Source of the DNA: a virus
Length of the DNA: 36,996 nucleotides
Virus record (IMG/VR): IMGVR_UViG_3300047557_000609
Location: 1-36,996 of that record
Reading direction: 5' to 3' (one strand)
Every line of letters starts with the position of its first letter. Positions within the stretch are counted from its first letter, which is position 1. Both the position numbers and the translations under genes were made by a program. This document shows positions 21,443-35,619 of this stretch, one piece after another. A model generated the notes under the pieces. It worked only from the letters and a program-made list of their open reading frames with translations, searched no databases and was not told where the DNA came from.

Positions 21443-21443
21443 G

Positions 21444-23049: not shown

Positions 23050-23153
23050 TTAGAATCCTTCCAAAAGTAAATCCATCCTTGTTCATCCATGCCAAGAACA
23101 GTAAAGTTTGCACTGTCTCCGACTACTTTCCATTCTTTAATGTTAAGTTCCAT
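23034..23153 (-). CDS. Short protein (39 aa)
   Basis: MELNIKEWKVVGDSANFTVL begins a protein that ends WIYFWKDSKWHIL; predicted small beta sheet. It fills the gap between the nuclease gene (11-nt overlap) and the 82-aa gene (16-nt overlap), the same close packing as elsewhere in this arm. Function unknown. Confidence 0.6.
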   Translation of the reverse strand: MELNIKEWKVVGDSANFTVLGMDEQGWIYFWKDSKWHIL

Positions 23154-23487: not shown

Positions 23488-23737
23488 GTTTAATTACCTT
23501 TCGTTTCTTTATCCATGCCTTAGGCACATGCATCCTAGCGTTGCTATCTTCCTTAGACACTGTTGATGCAATGCATATTGCGTCCGCTGTTTCACTAATC
23601 AGGAATCCGATTGTGTGACAGAGGTGGATCTCAGCTTTGACTCCGTCTTCCCATCCTGAGTCTGCGACTGCGTCAACCCACTCGATGTAGATAGCTTTGG
23701 TGGTGTCCAGATTTGGTTTGGTTGTCTTCTTATCCAC
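23396..23737 (-). CDS. Conserved T7-like phage protein (113 aa)
   Basis: The conserved core is KAIYIEWVDAVADSGWEDG followed by HTIGFLISETADAICIASTV and ARMHVPKAWIKKRKVI, which recurs in many T7-like phages beside the exonuclease gene; I know no function. The best start I see is GTG 23737 (VDKKTTKPN); the longer frame upstream reads the exonuclease gene out of frame. This gives a 139-nt overlap with the exonuclease end and 92 nt with the nuclease gene. The C-terminus is Lys-rich. Confidence 0.75.
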   Translation of the reverse strand: MDKKTTKPNLDTTKAIYIEWVDAVADSGWEDGVKAEIHLCHTIGFLISETADAICIASTVSKEDSNARMHVPKAWIKKRKVIKLEAPVSKSKRKKVTAVGERPDTPTIPYAEH

Positions 23738-24369
23738 AGTAATTGTCCGTTCTCCAGCACCCTTGCTGCGTCTCCTTTGTAAGCTTCCAGGACAGCAAGA
23801 TACATTTCGTTTTCGTCTTTGCATTCTTTAAGTATTCTCTCTGCTTTAACTGCTCCAATGCCTTTAATCCCAACAACATTGTCTACCCTATCACCAGTTA
23901 AAATCTGTTTATAAAAATTCCTGATTCCTTCTTCCTCAGTTATAAAGTAACGGTGATCCTTAGTAAAGTTAAAGTGATCTCCTCGTATCATATCCAAGTC
24001 TTTATCGATTGTACAAATACAGTACTCACCAGGTTCTAGTGCATACGCTGCAATACCAATAGCGTCATCTGCTTCTTGTTCTTCAATCATCTCAAAGCCC
24101 CAGCTCTGCTGCATATACTGTCGAAGTATAGCGTAGTGCTTTGGCTTAGCTGATTTGCGATTACCTTTATACGGAGCAGTTACTGCTATATCATGCCTGA
24201 AGTTACTACCACCTGTTAAATATCCTTTATAGTCCTCGAATCCATTGAAGAGAATCAGGTTCTCTAGAAACTCACCGCATCTAGCTATCGCTATTGACTC
24301 GGTATCTTCCTCCGATGCAAAGCCAATGCGATAAACTAGAATGTCCCCATCAATCAGGGCGAGGTGCAT
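23599..24369 (-). CDS. 5'-3' exonuclease, T7 gp6 / FEN type (256 aa)
   Basis: Removes RNA primers and degrades host DNA from 5' ends. The N-terminal PIN-like nuclease has LIDGDILVY (Asp7, Asp9), the acidic run EEQEADDAIG and CTIDKDLDM; then the helix-three-turn-helix GDRVDNVVGIKGIGAVKAER. After ENGQLLWIRRQPNQIWTPP, where I expect such enzymes to end, there is a Ser/Thr/Gln-rich tail of about 30 residues that lies in the overlap with the next gene. The tail suggests a lost stop codon or overprinting. It starts one base into the stop of the SSB gene (TGATG). Confidence 0.9.
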   Translation of the reverse strand: MHLALIDGDILVYRIGFASEEDTESIAIARCGEFLENLILFNGFEDYKGYLTGGSNFRHDIAVTAPYKGNRKSAKPKHYAILRQYMQQSWGFEMIEEQEADDAIGIAAYALEPGEYCICTIDKDLDMIRGDHFNFTKDHRYFITEEEGIRNFYKQILTGDRVDNVVGIKGIGAVKAERILKECKDENEMYLAVLEAYKGDAARVLENGQLLWIRRQPNQIWTPPKLSTSSGLTQSQTQDGKTESKLRSTSVTQSDS

Positions 24370-24788
24370 CAGAGAGCTTCTTCCTCGATGTCTGCAAGGT
24401 TAACACCAGTAGGTTTGTACTCGATTAAATCTTTCACGATGATCTTACTGATACCTACTCCGACACCCTTCTTACCACCGACATTATACGAATACGGTTT
24501 GATCAAGGCAACACCTTTAGATCCGTTAGCAATCTTAACACTAATCTGGTTACCCTTCTCATCCACTGCAAGGATAGGATATAACTTGCTCTTAGCAGTA
24601 ACGAAGAAGCCCTGGTCAGGTTTGTTCGAATCATTCTTTACATTAATACCCATGTCCATCAAAGTCTTGATAGCGTCCTTAGACAGGTTACACAGATCGA
24701 CCTGATACTTCTCAGAGTATTTGTTCTTCTCGTTCAATGAAGCCCAGAAGAGGTCGGCTTTGATTGGTACTGGTTTTACTTGTTCCAT
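24369..24788 (-). CDS. Single-stranded DNA-binding protein, T7 gp2.5-like (139 aa)
   Basis: Coats single-stranded DNA at the fork and recruits polymerase and helicase. Features: an OB-like beta core (ADLFWASLNEKNKYSEKYQV, GFFVTAKSKLYPIL) and an acidic C-terminal tail (LADIEEEAL) that usually carries the protein-binding site. It is shorter than T7 gp2.5 (232 aa). It stands first after promoter P4 with ribosome site AAGGAG and lies just before the exonuclease gene. Confidence 0.87.
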   Translation of the reverse strand: MEQVKPVPIKADLFWASLNEKNKYSEKYQVDLCNLSKDAIKTLMDMGINVKNDSNKPDQGFFVTAKSKLYPILAVDEKGNQISVKIANGSKGVALIKPYSYNVGGKKGVGVGISKIIVKDLIEYKPTGVNLADIEEEAL

Positions 24789-24817
24789 TTATTTCTCCTT
24801 AGTAAACAACTACATAT

Positions 24818-24846
24818 ATTATACACTACTATTAATGCTTAGTCAA
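24818..24846 (-). promoter_or_regulatory. Sigma70 promoter P4 (leftward) before SSB
   Basis: On the minus strand, -35 TTGACT (24846-24841), 17-bp spacer, -10 TATAAT (24823-24818). The start would be near 24811, with AAGGAG (about 24801-24796) before the SSB ATG at 24788. The promoter sits at the end of the 58-aa gene and gives extra expression of SSB and the genes down to the reductase. Confidence 0.9.
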
Positions 24847-25008
24847 GTGTTCTTCTAAGCCTTCGTTTTGCAGGATCATAACAGTACGTTCCAGGAGTTC
24901 AATCGTCTCATCGTTGGGCATCCTAGTGTACACCATTAAGTATCCATCCTTTTCAGCAAGTACTACTAAATCATTCACATCCTCAGGTAATTCTTCCATC
25001 ACACTCAT
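24832..25008 (-). CDS. Small acidic protein (58 aa)
   Basis: ATG 25008 gives MSVMEELPEDVNDLVVLAEK; an alternative start is at MEELPED. The core LVVLAEKDGYLMVYTRMPND followed by an amphipathic helix (TIELLERTVMILQN) looks like a small phage family; function unknown. It overlaps the next gene by four bases, and its end contains the -35 and spacer of P4. Confidence 0.75.
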   Translation of the reverse strand: MSVMEELPEDVNDLVVLAEKDGYLMVYTRMPNDETIELLERTVMILQNEGLEEHLTKH

Positions 25009-25181
25009 GGTCGAAAATCCGAATCATGAATAGCTTCGATAATCTCAGACACAACTGGATTAGCTTCACGCTTAGTAGCATCTGCTACATTTCCAGCCAG
25101 CTTATAAAGAATATCTATGACCGTATGAGGAGAAGTACCCATTCGTATTTCCTGAAGTACCGCTTGTTTGATTCTATCCAT
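25005..25181 (-). CDS. Small helical protein after DNA polymerase (58 aa)
   Basis: ATG 25181 shares its A with the polymerase stop (TGATG) and starts MDRIKQAVLQEIRMGTSPHT; longer starts within the polymerase frame have weaker support. The form has three helices with IDILYKLAGNVADAT in the middle. Function unknown; co-expressed with the polymerase. Confidence 0.75.
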   Translation of the reverse strand: MDRIKQAVLQEIRMGTSPHTVIDILYKLAGNVADATKREANPVVSEIIEAIHDSDFRP

Positions 25182-26830
25182 CAGTGTGTTTCCTTCCATG
25201 AATTTCCTATTCTGTACTCGCCAGTGAGAGGGCATCGCATCTTTAATACACGACCTGCTTCTTCAATAGCTTGTACTCCTAACTTACCTACCATATCTGC
25301 GTATGGTTCTTCTACTTCAATCTGCCATTCGTCATGCACATTAGCGACGAACTTATAATCAATACCTAGTTTGCTTATGCGATCATCTAAGATCACCAAA
25401 GCTTGCTTCATGACAATCGCACCCGCACCTTGGAGAAGTGTGTTGAGTGCTGCATGGTCAGACCTAACGTGTAGTCTACGTCCATCAAGACCTGGTAACG
25501 ATCCCGACGACTTGCGGATTTTATCCACTGTCTCCCTAAGGACTCGTAGTTTCGGGGTGTTCGCCAGAAAAGAATCAATAAGTCTTTGTCCTTCTTTCGC
25601 TCCAGCACCAACAACTTTCCCGATCTTGGCAGCCCCTGCACCATAGAGGAATGCATATATAAACGTCTTTGCTTGAGCACGTGTTTCGAGTCCAGCAGCT
25701 TTCTGGTTTGCTGTGTGGATATCACCTTGTGTGACCTCATAAATATACGCATCGTCTTTCATATAGTGAGCAAGCATCCTAAGCTCCAGCCCTGAAGCAT
25801 CGATACCAACTAACTTATATCCTTTCTCTACAATCCAAAGATCCCTGCAGTCTTCTCCGTAGGGGCTACCACAACTAGGTACTTGTGCCATGTTAGGACT
25901 GTGATGTGTCATCCGTCCAGTCACTGCACCATTCGTTATTACTTTACCATGTACTCTACCATCAGGCTTTAGTTCTTTTAACCATGATTGGATCTGAGCA
26001 ATTCGTTTCTGTAATAGTAAGAACTCAGCAATCGCTTTAGCTTCAGGAAACTCTAAGCCTTCGAGCGTCCCTTCGTCGACGATTGGCTGACCGTTTTCTG
26101 TGAACTTCTCTGGCTTCCAGCCTTTCTCGATGAGCCTTTCCCCGATTTGTTTCCTGCTGCCTGGGTTGAAGACTTCAACTTTTGACTTGAGGGGCTTGCC
26201 TGTTTTCTCAGAGACTCGCTCGATAGTCTTGGCTGGAAAAATGTTTTGAAGCCCAGCCTCAAGAAGATCCAACTTATTTTGCAGCGTTGCAAGAAGGATG
26301 ACAGCTTGCTTCTCGTTGAGCTTGAAGCCGTTTGTTTCTTGCGTTGCAATGATCGCTTGTACATTGTGCTCAAGTTTAATACTCCTCTCATCAAATTTAT
26401 TTCTAGTAAGTTCAGCAGTTAAATGCTGGTACAGTTTCTCAGTTACTAAAGTATCTTGGATACAGTACTCCTCCATCTCTTTGGAATACCCAGCATCCCA
26501 GTCTTTGAAGTCTCCCTTAGGAAAACCTAAGCGTTGACCCCACGCATCTAAGCTATGTCCTCCCTCTAGACTTGGACTTAGCAGCCGACTTAGCACGAGC
26601 GTATCGCACATCTGGCTCTGCTTCATCGTAATGTTCCAATTCCTTTTCAGTACTGGGGCATCGAAGCATATTCCGTTGTGCATGATAATCAAATCGCAAC
26701 TGTCCAAATACTTTTGTAACTCGTTTGCTTCCTTCCATACTATTACGTCTCCTCCCACTTCTCTTGTAACACACATCCAAATCTTGTCATGTGTGCTGTT
26801 TGTTTCTATGTCGAGAATAATCTTTCTCAT
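25181..26830 (-). CDS. DNA polymerase, family A, T7-like with 3'-5' exonuclease (549 aa)
   Basis: The replicative polymerase. From ATG 26830: exonuclease domain with DIETN (Asp7, Glu9), LIIMHNGICFDAP (about 48-60) and the EYCIQDT segment; polymerase domain with motif A GIDASGLELR (Asp344), motif B RAQAKTFIYAFLYGAG, and motif C VANVHDEWQ (His499-Asp500-Glu501). The canonical Asp of motifs A and C are present. At 549 residues it is shorter than T7 gp5 (704), as in many phages of this type; no thioredoxin-binding insert is clear. It ends joined to a 58-aa gene (TGATG). Confidence 0.93.
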   Translation of the reverse strand: MRKIILDIETNSTHDKIWMCVTREVGGDVIVWKEANELQKYLDSCDLIIMHNGICFDAPVLKRNWNITMKQSQMCDTLVLSRLLSPSLEGGHSLDAWGQRLGFPKGDFKDWDAGYSKEMEEYCIQDTLVTEKLYQHLTAELTRNKFDERSIKLEHNVQAIIATQETNGFKLNEKQAVILLATLQNKLDLLEAGLQNIFPAKTIERVSEKTGKPLKSKVEVFNPGSRKQIGERLIEKGWKPEKFTENGQPIVDEGTLEGLEFPEAKAIAEFLLLQKRIAQIQSWLKELKPDGRVHGKVITNGAVTGRMTHHSPNMAQVPSCGSPYGEDCRDLWIVEKGYKLVGIDASGLELRMLAHYMKDDAYIYEVTQGDIHTANQKAAGLETRAQAKTFIYAFLYGAGAAKIGKVVGAGAKEGQRLIDSFLANTPKLRVLRETVDKIRKSSGSLPGLDGRRLHVRSDHAALNTLLQGAGAIVMKQALVILDDRISKLGIDYKFVANVHDEWQIEVEEPYADMVGKLGVQAIEEAGRVLKMRCPLTGEYRIGNSWKETH

Positions 26831-26892
26831 TACATTCCATTTCCAAAAGTTATTCCAATTAAATAAATTTAACGGAGGACATTTCCATATCA

Positions 26893-27114
26893 CTACACTG
26901 GGACTCCTTGTCTAATTCGATTAGGAAACTCACGCTCTAACCAGAAGCAGCGAGTGTCTCCATGTTCATCTCTTGCGTAATAACCATCCCACTTAGAGTA
27001 CTTAGTATTGTAACTGCTGCATTCAATATTGTTTAGTCTATGCTTATGCTCACTAATTAAGAAGCCAATAAGCATGCCAAACAAAGCAGCCACTACAATT
27101 AAAGAGTTCTTCAT
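26893..27114 (-). CDS. Small membrane-anchored or exported protein (73 aa)
   Basis: MKNSLIVVAALFGMLIGFLI is a hydrophobic N-terminus (anchor or uncleaved signal), followed by a polar domain with two Cys (IECSSYN, TRCFWLE) that might form a disulphide in the periplasm. Not recognised. It overlaps the upstream gene by four bases and lies just ahead of the DNA polymerase. Confidence 0.7.
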   Translation of the reverse strand: MKNSLIVVAALFGMLIGFLISEHKHRLNNIECSSYNTKYSKWDGYYARDEHGDTRCFWLEREFPNRIRQGVPV

Positions 27115-27281
27115 TTTGTTTTGACTTTCTTAGCAGCAGCCTCTGCTTCTTTAACTACGACCTGCTGAGTAGCCAACACAAAAGCATCCTGCAGTTCTTT
27201 AACCATCAGTTCTAACTTAGCAACTCGTTGACCTAGTTCATTGACTGAATCAATAACCTTAGGCATTTGTAATAAACTCAT
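27111..27281 (-). CDS. Small coiled-coil protein (56 aa)
   Basis: MSLLQMPKVIDSVNELGQRV begins a wholly helical protein with heptad-like hydrophobic positions (VNELGQRVAKLELMVKELQDAFVLA) and a Lys-rich C-terminus (AAAKKVKTK). The start lies a base after the upstream stop and the end overlaps the next gene by four bases. Possibly an oligomerising partner of a neighbour; function unknown. Confidence 0.72.
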   Translation of the reverse strand: MSLLQMPKVIDSVNELGQRVAKLELMVKELQDAFVLATQQVVVKEAEAAAKKVKTK

Positions 27282-27282
27282 T

Positions 27283-27504
27283 TCATAACCTCACATTTAT
27301 ATAGGTGACTACTCCTGCAAAATACAGGGCTACAGCCACAGCCTCGACCAGGATCAAAGGTAGATCACGCTGCAGTATACCTGCATAAGTCCACAAACCT
27401 GATCCAACCAATCCAAATAATATATTAAGGGGATATACATTGAAGCTAGTTAATGCTATTCCAATGAGACATAATATAGTACCTCCCCATTTAATTAATT
27501 GCAT
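27283..27504 (-). CDS. DUF6552-like small membrane protein (73 aa)
   Basis: ATG 27504 gives MQLIKWGGTILCLIGIALTS, then NVYPLNILFGLVGSGLWTYA and a third hydrophobic segment (VEAVAVALYFAGVVTYINV); three membrane spans. The pattern ILCLIGIALTSFNVYPLNILFG...WTYAGI fits DUF6552 as I recall it. The longer frame upstream is the shadow of the exported mini-protein (overlap of ten bases). Role unknown. Confidence 0.75.
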   Translation of the reverse strand: MQLIKWGGTILCLIGIALTSFNVYPLNILFGLVGSGLWTYAGILQRDLPLILVEAVAVALYFAGVVTYINVRL

Positions 27505-27629
27505 ATCGTTACATTCGGACATACGGTACAGGTGATGTACTTTCCACCAGATGAAACGATGGTAGTGGTGCAAGCGAAGCTATTATTATACACCACAACT
27601 AGGGATAACGCAAGTAAAATCTTTTTCAT
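27495..27629 (-). CDS. Exported Cys-rich mini-protein (44 aa)
   Basis: MKKILLALSLVVVYNNSFAC is a signal peptide with a likely cleavage site after SFA and a Cys next to it. The mature part has four Cys (ACTTT, YITCTVCPNVTICN) and a short beta hairpin. From memory, similar tiny secreted proteins with a TTVV-G-TCTVC-C pattern are common in phages of Proteobacteria. It overlaps the primase-helicase gene by four bases (ATGA). A role in the envelope during infection is possible. Confidence 0.78.
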   Translation of the reverse strand: MKKILLALSLVVVYNNSFACTTTIVSSGGKYITCTVCPNVTICN

Positions 27630-29263
27630 AATTTATTCTCCTCAGGAGGGAGCTCTGTCATGCGTCCAGTCAAGCGACTGTACAGTAATCGAGAAGCTAA
27701 CCCAGTTAAACCACTAAAACGATTCTTTAATACTCGGACGTAGGTAGTGTTACGTTCCTGCTCGTCTTCATGCTGACCGTTACGTTCCAATCCAATGACC
27801 ATGTCTGATAGCTGAGCAATCGAACCTGAACCACGTAGCTGTGCTAATGATGTAGCAGCACCTTCCTCATGCCCTTTAGATTCTGGACGCTTAAGATGTG
27901 ATACCACAAACAAAGCAATGCCAGTTTCTTGCACGATAGTCCGCAGCTTAGTCATGATCTCGTCTAATGCTTTCCTTTCGTCCCCATTCTCCTGAGCACT
28001 GACCACAATCGATACGTGATCAAGGAATACATAACGACAATTAAGACCTTTTGCCATAAAGCGTACTCGGTTGATAATATTGTCAATGGCGGTAGACCCA
28101 AAATGATCAAACAAAAATACACGATCAGTTCCAAGGGTAGCATCAAATGCATAGCGTAGTTCCTCCTCGTCAACATCACAATCAGGTAAGTGCAATGGTT
28201 TGTTTGCAGCAAGAGACATCAAACTCTTAGCAGTTTTCTTGACCGACTCCTCCAAAAACATAAGACCAATGTTCTCCTCAGTCTTGTTCAGAATCTGCCA
28301 CACAATCTCTCGCATAAACTGAGACTTACCGAGTCCTGATCCAGCAGTAATCGTTACGAGTTCACCCTGTCGGATACCGTAAGTTAACCCATTTATACCC
28401 GAATAGGGATACATCACCTCAGCCTTCTCGACTGGCTGGTTAACGAGTTCCCACAAGGTAGATCCTGCTACGATACCATCAGGTACATACTTCTCTGCGT
28501 TCCACCACTCCTCAACAAACTCCTTCACCAATCCCTGAATCAGGTAATCATTGGCGTCCTTGAGTTCCTTCTTAGGGAATCGAAAGATGTGTGCCTTACT
28601 GCCAAACAACTCAGCCACTTGGTTAGATGCCTGTTGACCTGGCTCATCGTTATCAAAGCAAATCACAATCTTATCAAAGGAGTCTAGGTACTCAAAACTT
28701 GCTCGACAATCCTTTAATGCAGATGTAGCACCGTTACGAATGGATACCACTGGGTAGCGAGATCCTGTCAACTGATAGCAAGCCAATGCATCGAACTCAC
28801 CCTCGGTAATCGTGATAGCTTTACCACCAGGAGTAAACTTGTTCTGCCCGAAGAGCACTGCTTCCTTCCAATCACCCACCACACTGAATTGTTTCTCAGT
28901 CATTGAGCGAGTCTTAGCAGCCACCACCTTACCAGTGATATCACAATATGGAAAGTAGTAGCTAGTACCATCAGAACCTGCACCAAAGAAGTGCATAGTC
29001 TGTGTAGAAATACCACGCTCTACAACTGGGGTAGCTTCTACGTTAGCCAATGCCTCTAGGACTGATTTAAACTGCTTAGGAGCAGCGTTCGTAGGTGCGG
29101 TGATACCCTCCCTTAGGACAGCCTGAACCATCGCCTCTGAGCCCTTCTTATACGTTCCACACTTATGACAGTACTCATGCCCATCATCATAGATACTGTT
29201 CGCATCCGAAGATCCGCAGGTACTGCAAGGTATGTGTTTCAAAAAGTTACTTTCTGTTTTCAC
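27626..29263 (-). CDS. Primase-helicase, T7 gp4-like (545 aa)
   Basis: Makes RNA primers and unwinds the fork. In order: zinc ribbon (Cys13, Cys16, Cys32, Cys35), TOPRIM primase core with TITEGEFDAL (Glu154) and VICFDNDEPG (Asp204, Asp206), linker, and RecA-like DnaB-type helicase with Walker A AGSGLGKS (307-314) and Walker B CRYVFLDHVS (about 398-407). The length agrees with gp4 (566 aa). All key residues are present. It starts the replication module of the leftward arm. Confidence 0.94.
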   Translation of the reverse strand: MKTESNFLKHIPCSTCGSSDANSIYDDGHEYCHKCGTYKKGSEAMVQAVLREGITAPTNAAPKQFKSVLEALANVEATPVVERGISTQTMHFFGAGSDGTSYYFPYCDITGKVVAAKTRSMTEKQFSVVGDWKEAVLFGQNKFTPGGKAITITEGEFDALACYQLTGSRYPVVSIRNGATSALKDCRASFEYLDSFDKIVICFDNDEPGQQASNQVAELFGSKAHIFRFPKKELKDANDYLIQGLVKEFVEEWWNAEKYVPDGIVAGSTLWELVNQPVEKAEVMYPYSGINGLTYGIRQGELVTITAGSGLGKSQFMREIVWQILNKTEENIGLMFLEESVKKTAKSLMSLAANKPLHLPDCDVDEEELRYAFDATLGTDRVFLFDHFGSTAIDNIINRVRFMAKGLNCRYVFLDHVSIVVSAQENGDERKALDEIMTKLRTIVQETGIALFVVSHLKRPESKGHEEGAATSLAQLRGSGSIAQLSDMVIGLERNGQHEDEQERNTTYVRVLKNRFSGLTGLASRLLYSRLTGRMTELPPEENKL

Positions 29264-29279
29264 TACTCACTCGCTTTCT

Positions 29280-29471
29280 TTAACTAATTTTGTAATCAAC
29301 TGTATGGCATCTAGGACACTGAACAGTCATTTTTGGCGGTATACAAGCCAACACCGCATAGGGTTGGGGATAGTACATTTCGACTTTGCAGTAATCACAT
29401 AAAACCCCAGCCTTATTTTGTTGTTCAATTTCTCGATAGCTTTGGTTGTTGTGTTCGGAAATAGTCTTCAT
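29280..29471 (-). CDS. Small zinc-finger protein (63 aa)
   Basis: Two Cys pairs, LCDYCKVE (Cys25, Cys28) and VQCPRCHTVD (about 51-54), form one zinc-ribbon. The N-terminal part is polar. Function unknown; it might bind DNA or a host protein. The end is 16 nt ahead of the primase-helicase, and the start overlaps the upstream gene by four bases. Confidence 0.75.
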   Translation of the reverse strand: MKTISEHNNQSYREIEQQNKAGVLCDYCKVEMYYPQPYAVLACIPPKMTVQCPRCHTVDYKIS

Positions 29472-29668
29472 TTCTCACTCGCTTCCTTTAGTGCTGACCA
29501 AACAATCCACTGTCTTTCTAATCCTTGCTCTTGAATAAATTGAGATGCTTGTTTTATAAGGTCTGCTTGTTGGCGTAGCATTTTACAAGTGTTAAGCATT
29601 AATTTTTCATTACTTGACCATAAACGGTCTTTGTTTTCTAAGTTATTTGCTAATTCGTATGCGTTCAT
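29468..29668 (-). CDS. Small helical protein (66 aa)
   Basis: MNAYELANNLENKDRLWSSN begins a protein predicted all-helical with Gln/Leu-rich middle (MLRQQADLIKQASQFIQEQG). Resembles short phage proteins of the form ANELE...MLRQQADxI that often go with small zinc proteins; function unknown. Coupled by ATGA to the genes on both sides. Confidence 0.75.
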   Translation of the reverse strand: MNAYELANNLENKDRLWSSNEKLMLNTCKMLRQQADLIKQASQFIQEQGLERQWIVWSALKEASEK

Positions 29669-29925
29669 TTTATCCCATGTCTCTGTTCAATAAGCTCTGC
29701 AAACGTAAGAATAATATAGTTTATAGTGCCGTCATTGTTTCTCATCTCAGGCAATAGCTCTGTGTTATCTGCTTCGCACCATAATTCATAAACTTCTTCA
29801 TCACTTAATCGCTTAGATTTCCAGATCATCTTAGCAGGATCTAATCCAGTGTACTTAGTAGTAGGATTAACTACTGCGTCCTCATATCCTGGATGGAATG
29901 GTGCTTCATCAACAAGTTTATTCAT
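29665..29925 (-). CDS. Unknown early protein (86 aa)
   Basis: Chosen start ATG 29925 (MNKLVDEAPFHPGYEDAVVN). The second half, SDEEVYELWCEADN and YIILTFAELIEQRHGIK, looks like a small helical domain seen in phage proteins of unknown function (from memory, near other small early genes). It overlaps the next upstream gene by eight nucleotides. Confidence 0.7.
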   Translation of the reverse strand: MNKLVDEAPFHPGYEDAVVNPTTKYTGLDPAKMIWKSKRLSDEEVYELWCEADNTELLPEMRNNDGTINYIILTFAELIEQRHGIK

Positions 29926-30082
29926 AACTGAACTCCGCAGTGGTATCATGTTGCTTTAATCTAAAGTTCCAGGCATCAACGATATCTTGCAGCACGACAT
30001 CAATACCGTATCGACCTGCACTATCGACAGCATTCTGCACGACAAAGTGATAATGCATTTCTTCTTCGTAGTTATCTTCCAT
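29918..30082 (-). CDS. Small early protein (54 aa)
   Basis: Starts MEDNYEEEMHYHFVVQNAVD at ATG 30082 with ribosome site AGGAG (about 30092-30088). A second in-frame ATG at 30103 also has AGGAG upstream and adds seven residues, so there are two possible starts. First gene after promoter P5. Function unknown. Confidence 0.72.
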   Translation of the reverse strand: MEDNYEEEMHYHFVVQNAVDSAGRYGIDVVLQDIVDAWNFRLKQHDTTAEFSYE

Positions 30083-30085
30083 AGT

Positions 30086-30163
30086 TACTCCTAAGTTTAA
30101 CATCTAAGTTATCTCCTAAGTACATACTATATAAAATACTATCTATATAAATACTTCTAAGTA
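30086..30163 (-). repeat. Repeated ACTTAG motif in P5 leader
   Basis: On the plus strand CTAAGT occurs at 30091-30096, 30104-30109, 30116-30121 and 30157-30162; the first three are 12-13 bp apart, roughly one helix turn. Two copies belong to the ribosome sites (ACTTAGGAG on the minus strand). The same motif recurs around promoter P3 in the control region. Confidence 0.6.
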
Positions 30164-30166
30164 AAT

Positions 30167-30195
30167 AGTATAGCATGCTTAGTAATCGTTGTCAA
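30167..30195 (-). promoter_or_regulatory. Sigma70 promoter P5 (leftward) within early arm
   Basis: On the minus strand, -35 TTGACA (30195-30190), 17-bp spacer, -10 TATACT (30172-30167). Start near 30160. It overlaps the end of the 77-aa gene. The leader (30160-30083) holds four copies of ACTTAG on the minus strand, the first at the start site itself, a possible operator. Confidence 0.85.
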
Positions 30196-30412
30196 GTTTA
30201 TTTTCTTGACGGTAATCATGATCGTCTGCACTCAGGAAGTCTTCCTCGTAGTCTTCGTCTTCATCATACAGATCTGTCCTTTCGTATGTTAGTAAGTCAT
30301 CACTTATAGTAGCGTAACATTTATTACACATGTCTAAGTATTCGTTGGTGTGTACACTCTTACGAGTGGCTTCAAAATCTGATAACATTTTATTACAGCA
30401 ATGGCATCTCAT
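30179..30412 (-). CDS. Zinc-finger protein with acidic tail (77 aa)
   Basis: CHCCNKM (Cys3, Cys5, Cys6 region) and MCNKCYA (about residues 29-32) make an N-terminal zinc knuckle; residues about 48-66 are very acidic (DEDEDYEEDF). A nucleic-acid mimic or transcription modifier would fit the acidic tail but there is no proof. The gene end overlaps promoter P5 and the start overlaps the upstream gene by four bases. Confidence 0.75.
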   Translation of the reverse strand: MRCHCCNKMLSDFEATRKSVHTNEYLDMCNKCYATISDDLLTYERTDLYDEDEDYEEDFLSADDHDYRQENKLDNDY

Positions 30413-30600
30413 ATTAGTGCATCTCCTAAAATTTTATAAGCCCAATTAAATTTATTGTCTACTGTCTTTTTACGTTCCATCATAAGTACTTGAATCTTAA
30501 AGGATTTGTCTAGTAGTAAGAACTTCTCAGCCTCTTCCTTATAACCAAAGATTCTAACAACTGAACCATCATAGTCTAAAATCTTATATAGCTTTTTCAT
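30409..30600 (-). CDS. Small early protein (63 aa)
   Basis: Start ATG 30600: MKKLYKILDYDGSVVRIFGY, continuing KEEAEKFLLLD; beta hairpin plus helix. A similar form, DYDGSVVRxFxxKEEAxxFL, is known to me as a short phage protein of unknown role. The start lies in the stop of the mini membrane protein (ATGA). Confidence 0.75.
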   Translation of the reverse strand: MKKLYKILDYDGSVVRIFGYKEEAEKFLLLDKSFKIQVLMMERKKTVDNKFNWAYKILGDALI

Positions 30601-30719
30601 TGTAGTACTCCGTATAAGTAACAAGATAATTCTAACCCGATATAGTATAGCACATGTCCACCGAAGTATGCAAGTGCAAACCATAAAGCATATTTAATCC
30701 ATTGGTCTTCGTTGTTCAT
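30597..30719 (-). CDS. Mini membrane protein (40 aa)
   Basis: MNNEDQWIKYALWFALAYFG starts a protein with one or two hydrophobic segments (WFALAYFGGHVLYYIGLEL). It is joined to neighbours by ATGA at both ends. A weak promoter-like pair (TTGCAT 30673-30668, TATACT 30649-30644, 18-bp spacer) lies inside it on the minus strand. Confidence 0.68.
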   Translation of the reverse strand: MNNEDQWIKYALWFALAYFGGHVLYYIGLELSCYLYGVLQ

Positions 30720-30790
30720 AAATCCCTTCCAATATAATAAGTTAAGCAAACCCAAATCAATATGATAATTGTTTTGTAATCAATCTCCAT
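30716..30790 (-). CDS. Very small membrane peptide (24 aa)
   Basis: ATG 30790 begins MEIDYKTIIILIWVCLTYYI, a single hydrophobic span, then GRDL. The start shares a base with the upstream stop (TGATG) and the stop overlaps the next start (ATGA), so translation coupling runs through it. This favours a true mini-gene in spite of the length. Confidence 0.6.
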   Translation of the reverse strand: MEIDYKTIIILIWVCLTYYIGRDL

Positions 30791-31008
30791 CAGAGTTTGC
30801 TCATCCTTTCAAGTCCATCTTGACAATCCTTACAATCACAGGGTATCACATCATTCTTTGCAGCTTGTCTAACCTCAGCCATTGAATCATATCCTCTAGT
30901 ATGTACAATATCATCAGAGAAACGGAATCCAAACGGAAGCCAAAGCATGTAAGTTTCTTCATCTGCTGACACATCTACATCTCTTTTAACATCTAGTTTG
31001 TATTTCAT
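30790..31008 (-). CDS. Small early protein with CDCKDC motif (72 aa)
   Basis: MKYKLDVKRDVDVSADEETY at the start, then YMLWLPFGFRFSDDIVHTRG, and VIPCDCKDCQDGL near the end (Cys56, Cys58, Cys61), a possible metal site. The middle is reminiscent of a small phage family (LWLPxGFRF...THxRxYDS). The ribosome site AAGGA lies before ATG 31008. Function unknown. Confidence 0.72.
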   Translation of the reverse strand: MKYKLDVKRDVDVSADEETYMLWLPFGFRFSDDIVHTRGYDSMAEVRQAAKNDVIPCDCKDCQDGLERMSKL

Positions 31009-31040
31009 AGCAGTCCTTTCGTGTTAGATACTACACCTCC

Positions 31041-31069
31041 AGTATGCCCCAGTTTTACAGGCTTGTCTA
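31041..31069 (-). promoter_or_regulatory. Possible weak promoter (leftward)
   Basis: On the minus strand TAGACA (31069-31064), 17-bp spacer, CATACT (31046-31041). Five and four of six bases match consensus. It sits in the longest leftward intergenic gap (31009-31108), which also holds TTAGGG-AAAA-CCCTAG and ATTTCA-TAATG-TGAAAT hairpins. Confidence 0.45.
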
Positions 31070-31071
31070 TT

Positions 31072-31101
31072 AGGGAAAACCCTAGGTTATTTCATAATGT
31101 G
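31072..31101 (-). other. Hairpins in gap 31009-31108
   Basis: TAGGG/CCCTA (about 31071-31084) and ATTTCA/TGAAAT (about 31089-31105) can form two small stems between the stop of the 107-aa gene and the possible promoter at 31041-31069. There is no T-run, so they are not clear terminators; they may be RNA processing or stability elements. Confidence 0.4.
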
Positions 31102-31108
31102 AAATAGT

Positions 31109-31432
31109 TTAATCTTCTTCTGCGTATCCTCTAGCAACTTCTCGCCAGTAGTTTAGTACCTTGTCTTTTACTTCCTGTGGTGCTAGGTTAAAAGGAATAT
31201 CTTCGAAGACTGTACCTGTGTATCCAGTCTCAGAGACTCCCTCATACCATTGCTCATCAGCTTTCCAGTAGAATTGTCCCTCAGGATCTTCTACCATATT
31301 ATGGATTCTCTCCTCAATTAATTCCTCGTCATAATCCTCGTCTTCTGGCTCATAATATCTATCGTTATAGTATCCGCTATCGTATCTGTTCATATCTTCC
31401 TCTTCAATTATTAGCTGCTTCAGTTTGCCCAT
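31109..31432 (-). CDS. Acidic Tyr-rich early protein (107 aa)
   Basis: From ATG 31432 (ribosome site GGAG) or, less likely, 31393 (MNRYDSGYYND). Residues about 14-50 are rich in Tyr, Asp and Glu (YYEPEDEDYDEELIEER). The C-terminal half (YWKADEQWYEGVSETG, FNLAPQEVKDKVLNYWREV) seems folded. The acidic character suggests DNA mimicry or binding of basic host proteins; inference only. It overlaps the upstream gene by 29 nt. Confidence 0.7.
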   Translation of the reverse strand: MGKLKQLIIEEEDMNRYDSGYYNDRYYEPEDEDYDEELIEERIHNMVEDPEGQFYWKADEQWYEGVSETGYTGTVFEDIPFNLAPQEVKDKVLNYWREVARGYAEED

Positions 31433-31610
31433 GATTACTCCATTGAAATATTAGTTTATCCTCTAATTCCTCCAATATTGCAAGCTTCTTAAGTAAACCA
31501 TTCCTTACATCGTCTTCTAAGTACGGATTTTCTAATCCTTTCCTCACGTCCTCCTGATTATACAGTACTCCCTGCCATAAGTAAACTCTTTCCTCGTATG
31601 TGAATTGCAT
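31404..31610 (-). CDS. Small helical protein (68 aa)
   Basis: MQFTYEERVYLWQGVLYNQE at the start; mostly helical, with EELEDKLIFQW near the end. Similar short proteins of the type YTEEE...LWQGL are found among early phage genes as I recall. Starts one base after the stop of the protease-like gene. Confidence 0.7.
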   Translation of the reverse strand: MQFTYEERVYLWQGVLYNQEDVRKGLENPYLEDDVRNGLLKKLAILEELEDKLIFQWSNHGQTEAANN

Positions 31611-31611
31611 A

Positions 31612-32043
31612 TTATCCCACCTTATAAAAATGTTTTACTCTTGCCCTGGGGTTTGGCTCATGGTTATCGTACCACACTCCATCAATTAAAGCTAGAGCAT
31701 GGTTAGATTTTACCACAATATACTTACCTTTAGGGAATAATTCTGCAAACTTTTTAAGAGTCATATTCAGATAAGTAGGCATCCTCCAATTACCCTTTAC
31801 TTTTATGACATGCTTTTCGTTTTCAATACTGTAATCCTTCTCAGCATTCATAAGCCAGTTTATAGAGCATGACATCATAAGGGTAGAGCATCCCCTACCA
31901 TGTACCCTCCCAAATGCCTTGTATACCTTATAGACATCATAATAGGGTATATCTAGTGCTAAGGATGTCGCATTGAGTGCACAGCAGTTACGATCCTCAC
32001 CTTTTACATGAGCTATCTTGTTGACGTATTGCATTTTATCCAT
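31612..32043 (-). CDS. Possible papain-fold cysteine protease (143 aa)
   Basis: Start ATG 32043 follows a strong GAGGAGG site; 32061 is a possible longer start without one. The N-terminal segment GEDRNCCALNATSLALDIPY puts Cys20/Cys21 at the head of a helix, as in papain-fold enzymes, and YIVVKSNHALALIDGVWYDN puts His115 in a beta strand followed by Asp126, the usual order Cys-His-Asp. GRVHGRGCS between them is also typical. I recall similar proteins in T7-like phages with no tested function. It could cut or deamidate a host protein. It overlaps the next gene by eight bases. Confidence 0.6.
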   Translation of the reverse strand: MDKMQYVNKIAHVKGEDRNCCALNATSLALDIPYYDVYKVYKAFGRVHGRGCSTLMMSCSINWLMNAEKDYSIENEKHVIKVKGNWRMPTYLNMTLKKFAELFPKGKYIVVKSNHALALIDGVWYDNHEPNPRARVKHFYKVG

Positions 32044-32209
32044 GAATGTGTCCCTCCTCAATTAATTGTCTAGCTGTACGTCCGAACCAGCCTTGTAATT
32101 GCCAAGCCATACCAGTATCTACTAAGGTCTGCCAAGCTTCTAGTACTTGCTCCTCAGAATCTGCCTCAATAAATCCTTCTGCAATTCCTACAGCGTCCAT
32201 TGTATTCAT
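32036..32209 (-). CDS. DUF7417-like early protein (57 aa)
   Basis: MNTMDAVGIAEGFIEADSEE, then the core EAWQTLVDTGMAWQLQGWFG and TARQLIEEGHIH, a recurrent phage mini-protein (AWQxLIDTGxxWQLQGWFGRTA). Helical; unknown role. It overlaps the protease-like gene by eight bases; its end contains that gene's ribosome site. Confidence 0.82.
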   Translation of the reverse strand: MNTMDAVGIAEGFIEADSEEQVLEAWQTLVDTGMAWQLQGWFGRTARQLIEEGHIHG

Positions 32210-32227
32210 TTTCAATTTTCCTTTAGT

Positions 32228-32869
32228 TTATTTCATTGCAACAATCTTAATAACTTTAGCCATTTTAACTCCATGAGCTTTATATGCGACAATCTGCACG
32301 TCCTTATCGTAACATGCTCGGCAGCCGTTACATTTTCCCTCATGCTGATAAGCTTTACACTCGAAGGCATTAGCAGGTAGTTTATCAGAAAATATAGTGC
32401 TAGTAGTTTGCCCTGGTATAGTCTCACCAGTAACACTATCGCTAGAGAATCTTACCACTACATTAGGAAGAGCTTGCATAGCTTGTATAACGTCCGTAAA
32501 CTTAGCAAACTTATGCATGCGAGTAGGTAACCAATGCTTGACGTGAGGGGTTTTTTGCATGACTAAAAAGATCTTCCATGCTAGATCATGAGAGTACATA
32601 TCCCCACTATCAAACCAGCGAAAGTATCTAGAATTCTCTAAAGACTGTACCATGTCGCTAACCCATGAGTCTCGCTTCCAATCCTCCCTATTGAATTCCC
32701 TAGGCTTCTTAACATTAGTAAACCTATAATTCCCTGTAGTGGCATAGCATCCCTGGCATGCTGGTACTAGATTACCTGTAGAATCCTTAGATCCTGGACA
32801 AGTATCCAATGCCTGTAATGACCATGAAAGAATTCCATCCAGTTTACTTGTTTTAGATAATTTGATCAT
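32228..32869 (-). CDS. GP88-like Cys-rich protein, possible metal-cluster enzyme (213 aa)
   Basis: Two Cys groups: Cys24, Cys38, Cys41 (DTCPGS...ACQGCYA) and Cys171, Cys180, Cys183, Cys186 (FECKAYQHEGKCNGCRACYD). Between them are RWFDSGDMYS, WLPTRMHK and VVVRFSSDS, beta-strand ends that recall the TIM-barrel-like core of phage GP88 / Gp37-Gp68 (DUF5131) proteins related to radical SAM enzymes. Iron-sulphur or zinc binding is inferred. No substrate is known. It is the largest gene of the small-gene block; ribosome site CTTAGGAG before ATG 32869. Confidence 0.72.
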   Translation of the reverse strand: MIKLSKTSKLDGILSWSLQALDTCPGSKDSTGNLVPACQGCYATTGNYRFTNVKKPREFNREDWKRDSWVSDMVQSLENSRYFRWFDSGDMYSHDLAWKIFLVMQKTPHVKHWLPTRMHKFAKFTDVIQAMQALPNVVVRFSSDSVTGETIPGQTTSTIFSDKLPANAFECKAYQHEGKCNGCRACYDKDVQIVAYKAHGVKMAKVIKIVAMK

Positions 32870-32880
32870 GTTTATAGCTC

Positions 32881-32976
32881 CTAAGCGTAAAACGTTACGA
32901 AAATAATTAAACCTATAAAACTACTAACCATTGTACCAGTATTTATAAGACTGAGTAATTTATCTTTTTGTGACAT
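32881..32976 (-). CDS. Mini membrane protein (31 aa)
   Basis: MSQKDKLLSLINTGTMVSSF leads into one hydrophobic span (FIGLIIFVTFY). Ribosome site AAGGAGG lies just upstream of ATG 32976, and the stop codon is part of the ribosome site of the GP88-like gene. A membrane-active peptide by its sequence; function unknown. Confidence 0.65.
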   Translation of the reverse strand: MSQKDKLLSLINTGTMVSSFIGLIIFVTFYA

Positions 32977-32988
32977 GGTAAAACCTCC

Positions 32989-33231
32989 TTAGATCCAAAG
33001 TTTATACGAATACTCAGGAGAGATTCTGGAGACTGTCTTTTTAGTGTACATGTCTTTTAATCCTCCTCTGATACCTACTTCAATAAGCCATGATTTATAA
33101 GAAGTGCTGGCTTGTACAAAAATGAATCCGTCCTTGTTTTCTACAATTGCGTTAGCTTGTGGATCGTACTCATTAATTCTATCAGCGATCCGTTGAGCTA
33201 TTCTTAATTGCTTCTCGCTAGTTTTGAACAT
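32989..33231 (-). CDS. First gene of leftward arm (80 aa)
   Basis: ATG 33231 has a very good ribosome site (AAGGAGG, about 33245-33239) and gives MFKTSEKQLRIAQRIADRIN; the middle is beta-rich (ANAIVENKDGFIFVQA). It lies about 20 nt below the start of promoter P6. The longer frame upstream runs through the promoter and is not used. Being first, it is likely expressed very early; no match recognised. Confidence 0.75.
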   Translation of the reverse strand: MFKTSEKQLRIAQRIADRINEYDPQANAIVENKDGFIFVQASTSYKSWLIEVGIRGGLKDMYTKKTVSRISPEYSYKLWI

Positions 33232-33258
33232 GTTTGCTTCCTCCTTGTTTATGTATCC

Positions 33259-33287
33259 ATTATCACGATCCATAACCCTACGGTCAA
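33259..33287 (-). promoter_or_regulatory. Sigma70 promoter P6 (main leftward promoter)
   Basis: On the minus strand, -35 TTGACC (33287-33282), 17-bp spacer, -10 GATAAT (33264-33259). Five of six bases match in both hexamers. Start near 33252, followed by the ribosome site and ATG 33231. It would drive the early gene block. Confidence 0.78.
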
Positions 33288-33378
33288 CAATGTTATTCCA
33301 CAATATGACAAAATCTTCTAAGTGTTTACCCTAAGCCAGGATGTCTTCCTAGATCTGCTCAGGATCTATTGAGAATGT

Positions 33379-33482
33379 CTTTAGAGTGTTAAGAATTTAT
33401 GCTCTAGAGTGTGGCATCTCAACCCACACACTCACTAAACTATACAGAAAACTATCAAGATTCTATAAAGATAACTCTAAAG
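33379..33482. repeat. Inverted and direct repeats, origin-like zone
   Basis: CTTTAGAGT (33379-33387) and ACTCTAAAG (33474-33482) are perfect inverted copies. Between them, GAGTGTG (33407-33413) can pair with CACACTC (33427-33433). Short direct copies of TAGAGTGT lie at 33382 and 33405. A G-run and an A-rich tract follow. Such clusters occur at replication origins; no known iteron is recognised. Confidence 0.45.
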
Positions 33483-33588
33483 CATGGGGGAGGGGGTATA
33501 ACGATTTAGTAATATAATCAGATCACTACTAAACACCTAAAAAGTTAAATTAAAAAGAAGACTAAATTGAAGAAATTAAAAGAAGTTA

Positions 33589-33617
33589 ACGACAGAAGAC
33601 TACAGATAAGATATACT
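33589..33617 (+). promoter_or_regulatory. Possible rightward promoter upstream of mini-ORF 1
   Basis: ACGACA (33589-33594), 17-bp spacer, TATACT (33612-33617). Four and five of six bases match the consensus. The start would be near 33624, ahead of AAGGAG (33642-33647) and ATG 33659. Confidence 0.5.
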
Positions 33618-33658
33618 ATATAAATCAATGGGTTAGTAATCTAAGGAGATAGCAGAAG

Positions 33659-33679
33659 ATGAGCTACGATAGTGAATAA
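33659..33679 (+). CDS. Mini-ORF 1 (6 codons: MSYDSE)
   Basis: A six-codon frame with a perfect AAGGAG ribosome site 11 nt before the ATG, below the possible promoter at 33589. Too short for a normal protein; a leader peptide or a ribosome loading site is possible. Confidence 0.35.
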   Translation: MSYDSE

Positions 33680-33778
33680 TAAAGGCTAGTTAGCTACACT
33701 TGCGGAACACGTGCTAGTTTACTGGGTAGACCCGCTGAACTCAGCTTCCCTATACCCATGAAATGTGCTACATAGTGA
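33663..33778. repeat. Direct repeat flanking hairpin domain
   Basis: GCTACGATAGTGA (33663-33675) and GCTACATAGTGA (33767-33778) differ by one base insertion and enclose the hairpin domain at 33723-33758. Confidence 0.55.
33723..33758 (+). other. Structured RNA-like hairpin domain in terminase leader
   Basis: TGGGTA (33723-33728) pairs with TACCCA (33753-33758), enclosing GCTG-AACT-CAGC (33734-33745). A competing stem GGG-TAGA-CCC (33724-33733) excludes the outer one. Sequence has no tRNA arms. It may be a regulatory leader or a small RNA. Confidence 0.5.
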
Positions 33779-33790
33779 GCTCCTAAGTAA
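33778..33790. repeat. 13-bp direct repeat AGCTCCTAAGTAA, first copy
   Basis: Identical to 33858-33870. The two copies flank promoter P3 with 80 bp between starts. The reverse strand reads TTACTTAGGAGCT, like the ribosome sites of leftward genes. A regulator binding pair is possible. Confidence 0.7.
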
Positions 33791-33798
33791 AATAATAC

Positions 33799-33827
33799 TT
33801 GACAAATCTTGATAAGTGTGGTATAAT
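33799..33827 (+). promoter_or_regulatory. Sigma70 promoter P3 (rightward, terminase and portal)
   Basis: Perfect TTGACA (33799-33804) and TATAAT (33822-33827), 17-bp spacer, extended TGG. Start near 33834, giving a leader of 150 nt to the small terminase GTG at 33984. Flanked by the 13-bp repeat pair. Confidence 0.92.
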
Positions 33828-33852
33828 AGTTGTACTAAGGAGAAAAAACGCT

Positions 33853-33870
33853 ATGTTAGCTCCTAAGTAA
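33853..33870 (+). CDS. Mini-ORF 2 (5 codons: MLAPK)
   Basis: ATG 33853 follows AAGGAG (33837-33842) at the head of the P3 transcript. It ends in the second copy of the 13-bp repeat. It might be a translated leader affecting terminase expression; very short, so uncertain. Confidence 0.35.
   Translation: MLAPK
33858..33870. repeat. 13-bp direct repeat AGCTCCTAAGTAA, second copy
   Basis: Identical to 33778-33790, about 25 bp downstream of the P3 start. Lies in mini-ORF 2. Confidence 0.7.
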
Positions 33871-33913
33871 TAACGATATAAAAAACAAATAATATAAAAA
33901 CTACTTAGTTAAA

Positions 33914-33933
33914 CTTCTAAGTAATCTTAGAAG
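33914..33933. promoter_or_regulatory. Palindrome, possible operator or hairpin
   Basis: CTTCTAAG (33914-33921) and CTTAGAAG (33926-33933) are perfect inverted arms with TAAT between. The arms contain the CTAAGT/ACTTAG motif seen at P5. ACTTAG also occurs at 33903-33908. It lies 50 bp before the small terminase start, so it may bind a dimeric regulator or fold in the mRNA. Confidence 0.65.
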
Positions 33934-33983
33934 AGAAGTAATTTTTAAATGTTAGTCTCTACTTACGTAGGAAAAGGCTTAGA

Positions 33984-34376
33984 GTGGACTTAGAAGAAAA
34001 AGAAGACAATCAAGTTGTTGTGTCTATCCCTCGTAGGGGTCGTCCACCTAAGGCTGTCGTAGAAGCAAAGCGTAAAAGAGGTAAGGTAGGTCGTCCCCAG
34101 GGTGACACAGGAAGGATCGCTGAATTCAAAGCAAGACTCCTGAGTACTACTGGAACTAAGGTTATAGACACTGTCTTAAGAAAAGCCTTGGATGATACCG
34201 ATAAAGATCAGGTAGCATGTCTAAAGATGTGCATGGACAGACTTCTACCTGTCTCACTCTTTGAAAAGGATGCGAAGGGTCAGCGGAATGCTGTAACCAT
34301 TAACATTACTGGCTTGGGTGAGACTAAGGTGGAAGCTGTAGAGACCATCGACATGGAGCAAGAAGATGAATCTTAA
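33984..34376 (+). CDS. Small terminase subunit / DNA maturase A-like (130 aa)
   Basis: Recognises phage DNA and regulates the large terminase. GTG 33984 (MDLEEKEDNQVV) follows AGGAAAAGG. Two AT-hook-like elements, RRGRPPK (residues 17-23) and KVGRPQGD (35-42), suggest minor-groove binding. A helical part follows (IAEFKARLLSTTGTKVIDTV and CLKMCMDRLLPVSLF), which recurs in small terminases of similar podoviruses. The acidic end overlaps the large subunit gene by 11 nt. Identity depends on order and these features. Confidence 0.78.
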   Translation: MDLEEKEDNQVVVSIPRRGRPPKAVVEAKRKRGKVGRPQGDTGRIAEFKARLLSTTGTKVIDTVLRKALDDTDKDQVACLKMCMDRLLPVSLFEKDAKGQRNAVTINITGLGETKVEAVETIDMEQEDES

Positions 34377-35619
34377 CTTCGAACTCCTGCCCTGGCAGAA
34401 ACAAGTATTCAGTGATGACACTAGGTTTAAGGTAATCGTAGCAGGTCGTCGCTGTGGAAAGAGTAGACTCTCAGCAGTAGCCCTCTTGGTAGAGGGACTG
34501 AGATGTCCAGCAGGTAGTGCGGTTATGTATGTAGCTCCTACGCAAGGACAAGCCAGACAGATTATCTGGGACTTGCTAATGGATCTTGGTAGAGAAGTGA
34601 TAACGAACTCCCATGTAAATAACATGGATATCACTTTGATTAATGGTGCTAAGATCTACGTCAGAGGTGCTGATAGACCAGATACCTTGCGTGGAGTCAG
34701 TTTAACATTTCTCGTACTAGACGAGGTAGCTGACATTAAACCAGACACTTGGGAGAAGGTATTACGTGCAGCGTTATCGGACAAGAAGGGCAAAGCGTTA
34801 TTTATTGGAACTCCGAAGGGACGCAATTGGTTCTATGAAATGTATAACCTTGGCACGTCAGCAGAGGATGAAGAGTGGAAGAGTTGGCACTTCACGACGA
34901 AAGATAACCCACTCATTGATCCAAAAGAAATTGAAGGAGCTAAGAAAACACTTTCTTCGTTTAGCTTTAAGCAGGAATACGAAGCCTCCTTCGATAATGC
35001 AGGAACAGATTTATTCAAGGAACAATGGATTCAGTACGGAGAAGAGCCTAGCGACGGTGTCTATCACATAGCGATTGACTTAGCAGGGTTTACGAATACA
35101 AACTACTCCTCCGCACGAGCAAAGAAATTAGACGAATCAGCAATCGCTGTAGTAAAAGTAACAGATGATGGAGACTGGTTTGTTAAAAAGATTGAACATG
35201 GTCGCTGGGATGTTAAAGAAGCTGCAGCAAGGATACTCAAAAACATCCGTCAGTTTGAACCAGTAGGTGTTGGGATTGAGCGAGGGACAGTACGCAACGC
35301 TGTATTACCCTATCTTAGCGATCTGATGAGATCAAACAACGTCTACGCAAGCATACAAGATTTAACGCATGGTGGTAAGCAAAAAACTGAGCGAATCCTC
35401 TGGGCATTACAAGGACGCTTTGAGCATGGTAAAGTAACATTAAATGAAGAAGAGGATTGGAGAGACTTCACCGATCAGCTTCTAATGTTTCCTACACCAC
35501 AGGTGCATGACGACTTAGTGGATGCTCTAGCGTATATCGATCAGTTAGCTGTAACGTCATACTTTACAGATGACGAAGAAGAAGATTATGAACCAACCGA
35601 TTTCATTGCTGGCTATTAA
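34366..35619 (+). CDS. Large terminase subunit (417 aa)
   Basis: ATP-driven packaging motor and nuclease. Walker A VAGRRCGKS (residues 25-33), Walker B FLVLDEV (115-121), coupling region FIGTPKGRNWF, nuclease domain with HIAIDLAG (Asp238), GVGIERG (Glu305) and HDDLVDALAYI (Asp382, Asp383, Asp386). Length is within range for podovirus large subunits, somewhat shorter than T7 gp19 (586 aa). All key residues are present. Followed after eight bases by a small gene and the portal. Confidence 0.95.
   Translation: MNLNFELLPWQKQVFSDDTRFKVIVAGRRCGKSRLSAVALLVEGLRCPAGSAVMYVAPTQGQARQIIWDLLMDLGREVITNSHVNNMDITLINGAKIYVRGADRPDTLRGVSLTFLVLDEVADIKPDTWEKVLRAALSDKKGKALFIGTPKGRNWFYEMYNLGTSAEDEEWKSWHFTTKDNPLIDPKEIEGAKKTLSSFSFKQEYEASFDNAGTDLFKEQWIQYGEEPSDGVYHIAIDLAGFTNTNYSSARAKKLDESAIAVVKVTDDGDWFVKKIEHGRWDVKEAAARILKNIRQFEPVGVGIERGTVRNAVLPYLSDLMRSNNVYASIQDLTHGGKQKTERILWALQGRFEHGKVTLNEEEDWRDFTDQLLMFPTPQVHDDLVDALAYIDQLAVTSYFTDDEEEDYEPTDFIAGY

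Follow-up and report, generated by a model that had tools for sequence, protein, structure and literature searches.

What is the function of the 752 bases (33232-33983) that part the leftward early and replication arm from the rightward terminase and structural arm in this uncultured freshwater phage? The window, by which we mean the whole analysed stretch of 36,996 nucleotides, is a circular map of 36,869 bp; its two ends share 127 identical bases, and the portal gene runs on across them. The leftward arm comprises the genes from 19362 to 33231 (ribonucleotide reductase, exonuclease, DNA polymerase, primase/helicase and small genes), and the rightward arm extends from 33984 across the window ends to 19060 (terminase, portal, capsid, tail and lysis genes).

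Results

The gap and its setting

An earlier note on this DNA had described about 750 bp without a standard gene. The description proved exact, as the gap lies between the ATG at 33231 and the GTG at 33984 and contains no plausible gene. It is bordered by the following genes:

32989-33231, minus strand: first gene of the leftward (early) arm, an open reading frame with its ATG at 33231 behind AAGGAGG; no convincing family match
33984-34376, plus strand: terminase small subunit gene, starting at GTG 33984; assigned by position, with AT-hook-like motifs RGRPPK and GRPQG and no family match
34366-35619, plus strand: terminase large subunit gene (phrog_2, E 5e-48)

The label "T7-like" given earlier holds for the primase/helicase and DNA polymerase, which are both T7-type. 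It does not extend to the rest of the phage: the scan of annotated proteins detected no gene for a single-subunit phage RNA polymerase, and the arms diverge. Megablast and distant blastn searches of the region in the phage collection gave no match, and a host search in bacterial genomes identified no relative. Elsewhere in the window, two near-perfect sigma-70 promoters lie face-to-face on opposite strands at the end of the portal gene (982-1047), within one long inverted repeat (TTGACAA...TTGTCAA). The protein encoded at 9052-9525 is Endonuclease VII-like; phage families with a sigma-70 decoy or anti-sigma annotation were weaker hits.

The gap itself contains the two opposing promoters that had been reported:

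33799-33827, plus strand: late promoter TTGACA-17-TATAAT with TG ahead of the -10, 12/12 sigma-70 consensus with 17-bp spacing; kept in relatives of the group
33287-33259, minus strand: sigma-70-like early promoter TTGACC-17-GATAAT, 10/12 consensus; transcript start expected ~20 bases before the ATG

Both are sigma-70 type, unlike a T7-like origin, which would have a promoter for a phage single-subunit RNA polymerase. The cumulative GC skew, proposed earlier as a check, does reach its minimum in the gap, as an origin would predict, yet gene direction switches at the same places; given this confounding, skew was discarded as origin evidence. The inverted repeat CTTTAGAGT/ACTCTAAAG, previously considered noteworthy, turned out to be at chance level, with four 9-mer inverted pairs in the region against 3.8 expected.

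Conserved blocks in related phages

With the large terminase protein as the query against IMG/VR, 80 relatives were recovered. Conservation was assessed in 35 aligned relatives, spacings and leaders in 43 non-redundant relatives, and the G-run in 40 non-redundant relatives with enough flank. The earlier note had named a lack of conservation in relatives among the findings that would refute its reading; among the 35 aligned relatives, conservation is strong, taking the form of sharp blocks within otherwise variable DNA. From left to right, these are a G-run, an A-rich box, a variable stretch (with iteron-like quasi-palindromes in some relatives), an IHF-type site of the pattern AATCAAnnnnTTA with varying nnnn, a 35-bp box, the late promoter, a leader with pseudo-palindromes, a small hairpin, and the terminase ribosome-binding site. 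The blocks upstream of the promoter are:

33486-33496, plus strand: G-run G5-A-G5, GGGGGAGGGGG
33531-33553, plus strand: conserved A-rich box AAACACCTAAAAAGTTAAATTAA, with columns mostly 80-100% identical in the 35 aligned relatives
33547-33611, plus strand: purine-rich A+T tract, within a destabilised stretch
33623-33635, plus strand: IHF-type site AATCAATGGGTTA, an exact match to the consensus WATCAANNNNTTR
33701-33735, plus strand: 35-bp box TGCGGAACACGTGCTAGTTTACTGGGTAGACCCGC ("element A"), nearly invariant in the 35 aligned relatives and single-copy in the genome

The G5-A-G5 run was correctly noted before, and no other G5 runs occur in the window; a pattern of this type arose in 1 of 40 whole-genome shuffles. 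It is found as G4+NG3+ in 37 of the 40 relatives, with G10, GGGGGAGAGG or an assembly gap in the remaining three. The run also occurs in deeper groups and in still deeper relatives, including GGGGGTGGG in the gap of the cultured Pelagibacter phage HTVC103P. In the aligned relatives, the A-rich box stands ~48 bp to its right, and in the group of L081, ACCGAAAAAG is found about as far from the G-run. L081 itself has a small terminase subunit that is free of AT-hook-like motifs, and its gap is likewise free of an IHF site. The leftward promoter reaches 11/12 in several relatives, in some of which it lies 42-46 bp left of the G-run.

The IHF-type site and the 35-bp box, like the operator-like leader repeats and the helical phasing described below, are additions to the earlier note. 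The IHF core WATCAANNNNTTR is exact in the window and in 35/35 aligned relatives, where the nine positions of AATCAA and TTA are invariant and NNNN is variable. It accompanies the 35-bp box, which has the form TGCGGAA..AGACCCGC, in all relatives with enough flank. When IMG/VR was scanned for this box, it was found only in this phage group, with chance pattern matches having neither the IHF site nor the promoter. Every true copy has an IHF site up to ~100 bases ahead and the late promoter after it, except where contigs are too short. In a deeper group (L219-L230), the G-run, A-rich box and promoter are retained, and several members have an IHF-type site; there, a different sequence replaces the 35-bp box, and the G-run is 301-303 bp from the promoter where both were found.

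Spacing follows the DNA helix

The distances between these blocks were found to fall into discrete classes in the 43 non-redundant relatives:

G-run to IHF-type site: 126-127, 135-138 and 157-159 bp (class means 126.5, 136.5 and 158)
IHF-type site to 35-bp box: 57-58, 68-70, 79-81 and 90-91 bp (class means 57.5, 69, 80 and 90.5)
35-bp box to late promoter: 63, 73-77, 85, 94-97, 105-107, 117-118, 127-128 and 149 bp (class means 63, 75, 85, 95.5, 106, 117.5, 127.5 and 149)

The spacings therefore move almost only in steps of ~10.6 bp, which correspond to whole helical turns. For the three spacings, Rayleigh R was 0.83-0.91 at best periods of 10.6-11.0 bp, where the sites were found by pattern, but with search ranges many turns wide. 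Random distinct distances matched the observed R in 2 of 5,000 draws (0.04%) for G-run to IHF and in none for the other pairs, although the classes are partly dependent because the window and its main relatives share ancestry. The IHF-to-promoter distance, which ranges over 131 to 228 in 22 distinct values, is still phased, and changes between nearest relatives were of 0-2, 9-12, 20-23, 30-33, 43-44 or 53 bp, with none in between. In contrast, the leader served as an unphased control: the distance from promoter to hairpin took 18 distinct values with R at most 0.26, and the first operator-like repeat showed no phasing either (R at most 0.22).

Distances conserved modulo the helical turn are what a phased promoter-control complex predicts, and such whole-turn spacing is the sequence signature of a single folded DNA-protein complex that is linked to the late promoter. 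The phasing fits any folded DNA-protein complex, transcriptional or otherwise. Because the spacings alter only by whole helix turns, we consider that the IHF-type site, the G-run, the 35-bp box and the strong late promoter very probably act jointly, as one complex governing the late-gene switch.

Destabilised DNA and the possibility of an origin

The purine-rich A+T tract of about 65 bp reported previously was recovered at 33547-33611; its 75% purine content is the highest reached by any 65 bases in the genome. Among all 100-bp stretches of the genome, 33864-33963 ranks second and 33526-33625 third in instability; they flank the promoter with destabilised DNA and give the gap the easily melted A+T-rich stretch expected of an iteron-type origin. 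The first-ranking 100 bp lie within 30072-30195, just past the start of the replication-operon promoter described below, which has an operator-like motif of the late-leader type.

These features raise the possibility of a replication origin, at which an initiator would bind iteron-like repeats, IHF would fold the DNA, the A+T tract would open, and the T7-type primase/helicase and polymerase would load. In a variant, the primer may come from late-promoter transcription or from transcription through the G-run. In addition to the genome's highest purine asymmetry, an origin could account for the quasi-palindromes TGCyTAA..TTArGCA, which occur as two copies 20-23 bp apart between the A-rich box and the IHF site in a second clade (L047, L059, L050 and others). 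These repeats, however, are degenerate in the window, and the stretch that holds them is swapped for another module among close relatives. Plasmid and bacterial origins employ IHF and require helical phasing of their sites (PMC5043065), and the G-run resembles the mitochondrial CSBII element, a site of R-loop primers (PMC6317783). On the other hand, an origin does not require phase-locking to a promoter, and the early proteins included no recognisable initiator. With skew uninformative, we regard an origin as possible, if doubtful.

The late leader and a second promoter with the same motif

Downstream of the late promoter, the leader contains a recurrent 10-bp pseudo-palindrome, ACTWnnWAGT, and the same motif was observed at the promoter that, by position, drives the operon holding the primase/helicase and polymerase:

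33834-33842, plus strand: operator-like half site ACTAAGGAG at the transcript start; also Shine-Dalgarno-like
33900-33933, plus strand: tandem operator-like repeats, ACTACTTAGT at 33900, ACTTCTAAGT at 33913 and a degenerate CTTAGAAG at 33926
33959-33970, plus strand: small hairpin CTAC-TTAC-GTAG ahead of the terminase ribosome-binding site
30153-30195, minus strand: replication-operon promoter TTGACA-17-TATACT (30195-30167), with the operator ACTTAGAAGT (30162-30153) covering the predicted start site

A total of 87 copies of ACTWnnWAGT, mostly 12-13 bp apart, were counted in the 43 late leaders, compared with 8 expected and a maximum of 17 in 300 shuffles. ACTWAGnAG occurs 3-8 bases past the -10 in 39/43 relatives. 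At the replication-operon promoter, the motif is present in 16/20 distinct relative sequences, often followed by another copy 13 bp away; in the other 4/20 the operator is not an exact match. In L063 and L195, the operator in the replication-operon leader has grown into a 10-bp tandem array, TAAGTAGTCT. Because two unrelated promoters carry one motif at the transcript start, the sequences suggest a common regulator of replication and late genes. Alternatively, the motif could represent small hairpins at the transcript start. The repeats are unphased and are therefore treated as a layer separate from the phased set. A search among the early proteins recognised no DNA-binding family and no regulator gene. 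A candidate leader peptide, ATGTTAGCTCCTAAGTAA (33853-33870), was rejected, as its frame is not kept in relatives.

The conservation could instead reflect a riboswitch or other structured regulatory RNA ahead of the terminase genes. The hairpin beside the ribosome-binding site does show paired changes, being CTGC-GTTA-GCAG in the second clade, and optional small inverted repeats occur ahead of the 35-bp box. Most of the conserved blocks, however, lie upstream of the late promoter, the spacing tracks the DNA helix, and the quasi-palindromes occur equally often with plus-strand C-A mismatches, which are disfavoured in an RNA helix. Searches of the region for tRNA and Rfam families returned no match. 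The 35-bp box was also considered as a riboswitch and dropped, since its variants have no consistent inner pairing and its spacing follows the DNA helix. Overall, an RNA explanation appears highly improbable.

Contig ends and packaging

Since the region lies directly upstream of the terminase genes, we considered a packaging region of the cos or pac type, where the small terminase subunit would bind the boxes and IHF would shape the site as in lambda cosB. In lambda, terminase binding sites flank an IHF site within cosB, beside the terminase genes, and cos spans ~200 bp (PMC4856287; PMC4669245). The IHF-type site near the terminase genes resembles this arrangement, and the small subunit has the AT-hook-like motifs listed above. 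Contig ends also cluster here, with 27 of the 80 related contigs ending within 1 kb before the large subunit gene compared with 4 in the first 1 kb beyond, and one 38-kb contig (L070) ending in the region itself. These ends are nevertheless spread and not at a single point, which speaks against a fixed genome end in the region, and assembly breaks could produce them. The window and three relatives close into circles that are cut at unrelated places, and the repeat part varies among close relatives whose small subunits are 98% identical. Moreover, deleting 11 bp between cosN and cosB is lethal in lambda (PMC4856287), while changes of 10-11 bp are the accepted ones here. We judge packaging to be an unlikely function by this analogy. 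Origin and packaging functions could each coexist with control of the late promoter.

Discussion

As the late promoter is a member of the phased set, its control is the most economical function for the region. We lean slightly towards reading the gap as the main cis-acting switch between the early and late arms. The early/late switch suggested by the earlier note is thus borne out to this degree, in that opposed promoters flank a conserved set phase-locked to the late promoter, and the operator-like motif is common to the replication-operon promoter. A point against a switch is that a promoter of consensus strength may require no control.

In the proposed mechanism, host IHF would bend the DNA at 33623-33635, and the bend would bring two partners onto one helix face, a protein complex bound across 33486-33553 (G-run and A-rich box) and a protein bound to 33701-33735 (35-bp box), where host RNA polymerase at the late promoter (33799-33827) would join them. 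The complex would mainly restrain the late promoter early in infection and would free it once phage proteins and replication alter its occupancy. The 10-bp operator-like repeat at the late and replication-operon transcript starts would add a second layer, placing both under one further regulator. We think restraint followed by release is the favoured form, and activation a less likely one, because the late promoter is already at full consensus. IHF occupancy of 33623-33635 is presumed, as are the presence of IHF in the host, the nature of the partner proteins, and when and in which direction the control acts.

The closest known systems include promoter DNA loops assisted by IHF or HU, such as the repression loops of the gal/GalR type and those at the IHF sites of phages Mu and lambda. 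The region shares with these a site for a bending protein between partner sites, a dependence on helical phase, and putative control of a strong sigma-70 promoter; it differs in that the evidence comes from natural variation and the partner proteins are putative. We know of no counterpart of the G-run plus 35-bp box in IHF/HU loop systems. Among phages, the Pelagibacter phages HTVC103P and HTVC115P have the same divergent layout, with a strong sigma-70-type promoter before the small terminase gene; no 35-bp box or IHF consensus was found in their gaps. The lambda cos region (cosQ-cosN-cosB, with IHF site I1) is similarly a compact noncoding region with an IHF site before the small terminase gene. 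Unlike cos, the region tolerates whole-turn spacing and has a promoter in its phased set.

The lambda ori and iteron plasmid origins (pSC101, R6K gamma) have in common with the gap repeats, an A+T-rich stretch, phasing and, in the plasmids, IHF, but no initiator was found here and the repeats are poorly kept in the window. The primary origin and early region of T7 also combines A+T-rich DNA by promoters with a primase/helicase and polymerase of this type, in contrast to the host-type promoters, diverging arms and lack of a detected phage RNA polymerase gene described above. Mitochondrial CSBII also has such a G-run pattern and belongs to the control region of a genome that a T7-type helicase/polymerase pair replicates; this is a resemblance only. 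In a combined reading, which we rate as quite unlikely, one phased structure would be both replication origin and late-promoter lock: a transcript stalled at the CSBII-like G-run would act as the primer, and replication would dismantle the complex and release the late promoter. If this were true, late genes would begin only after replication.

Although the freshwater phages of this group are represented here purely by sequences, their natural variation resembles a finished spacing-mutant experiment, with whole-turn spacer gains and losses over ~300 bp. The region would offer a model for late-gene timing in a phage without its own RNA polymerase, and the approach may provide a general comparative route to folded DNA-protein control regions in unculturable genomes.
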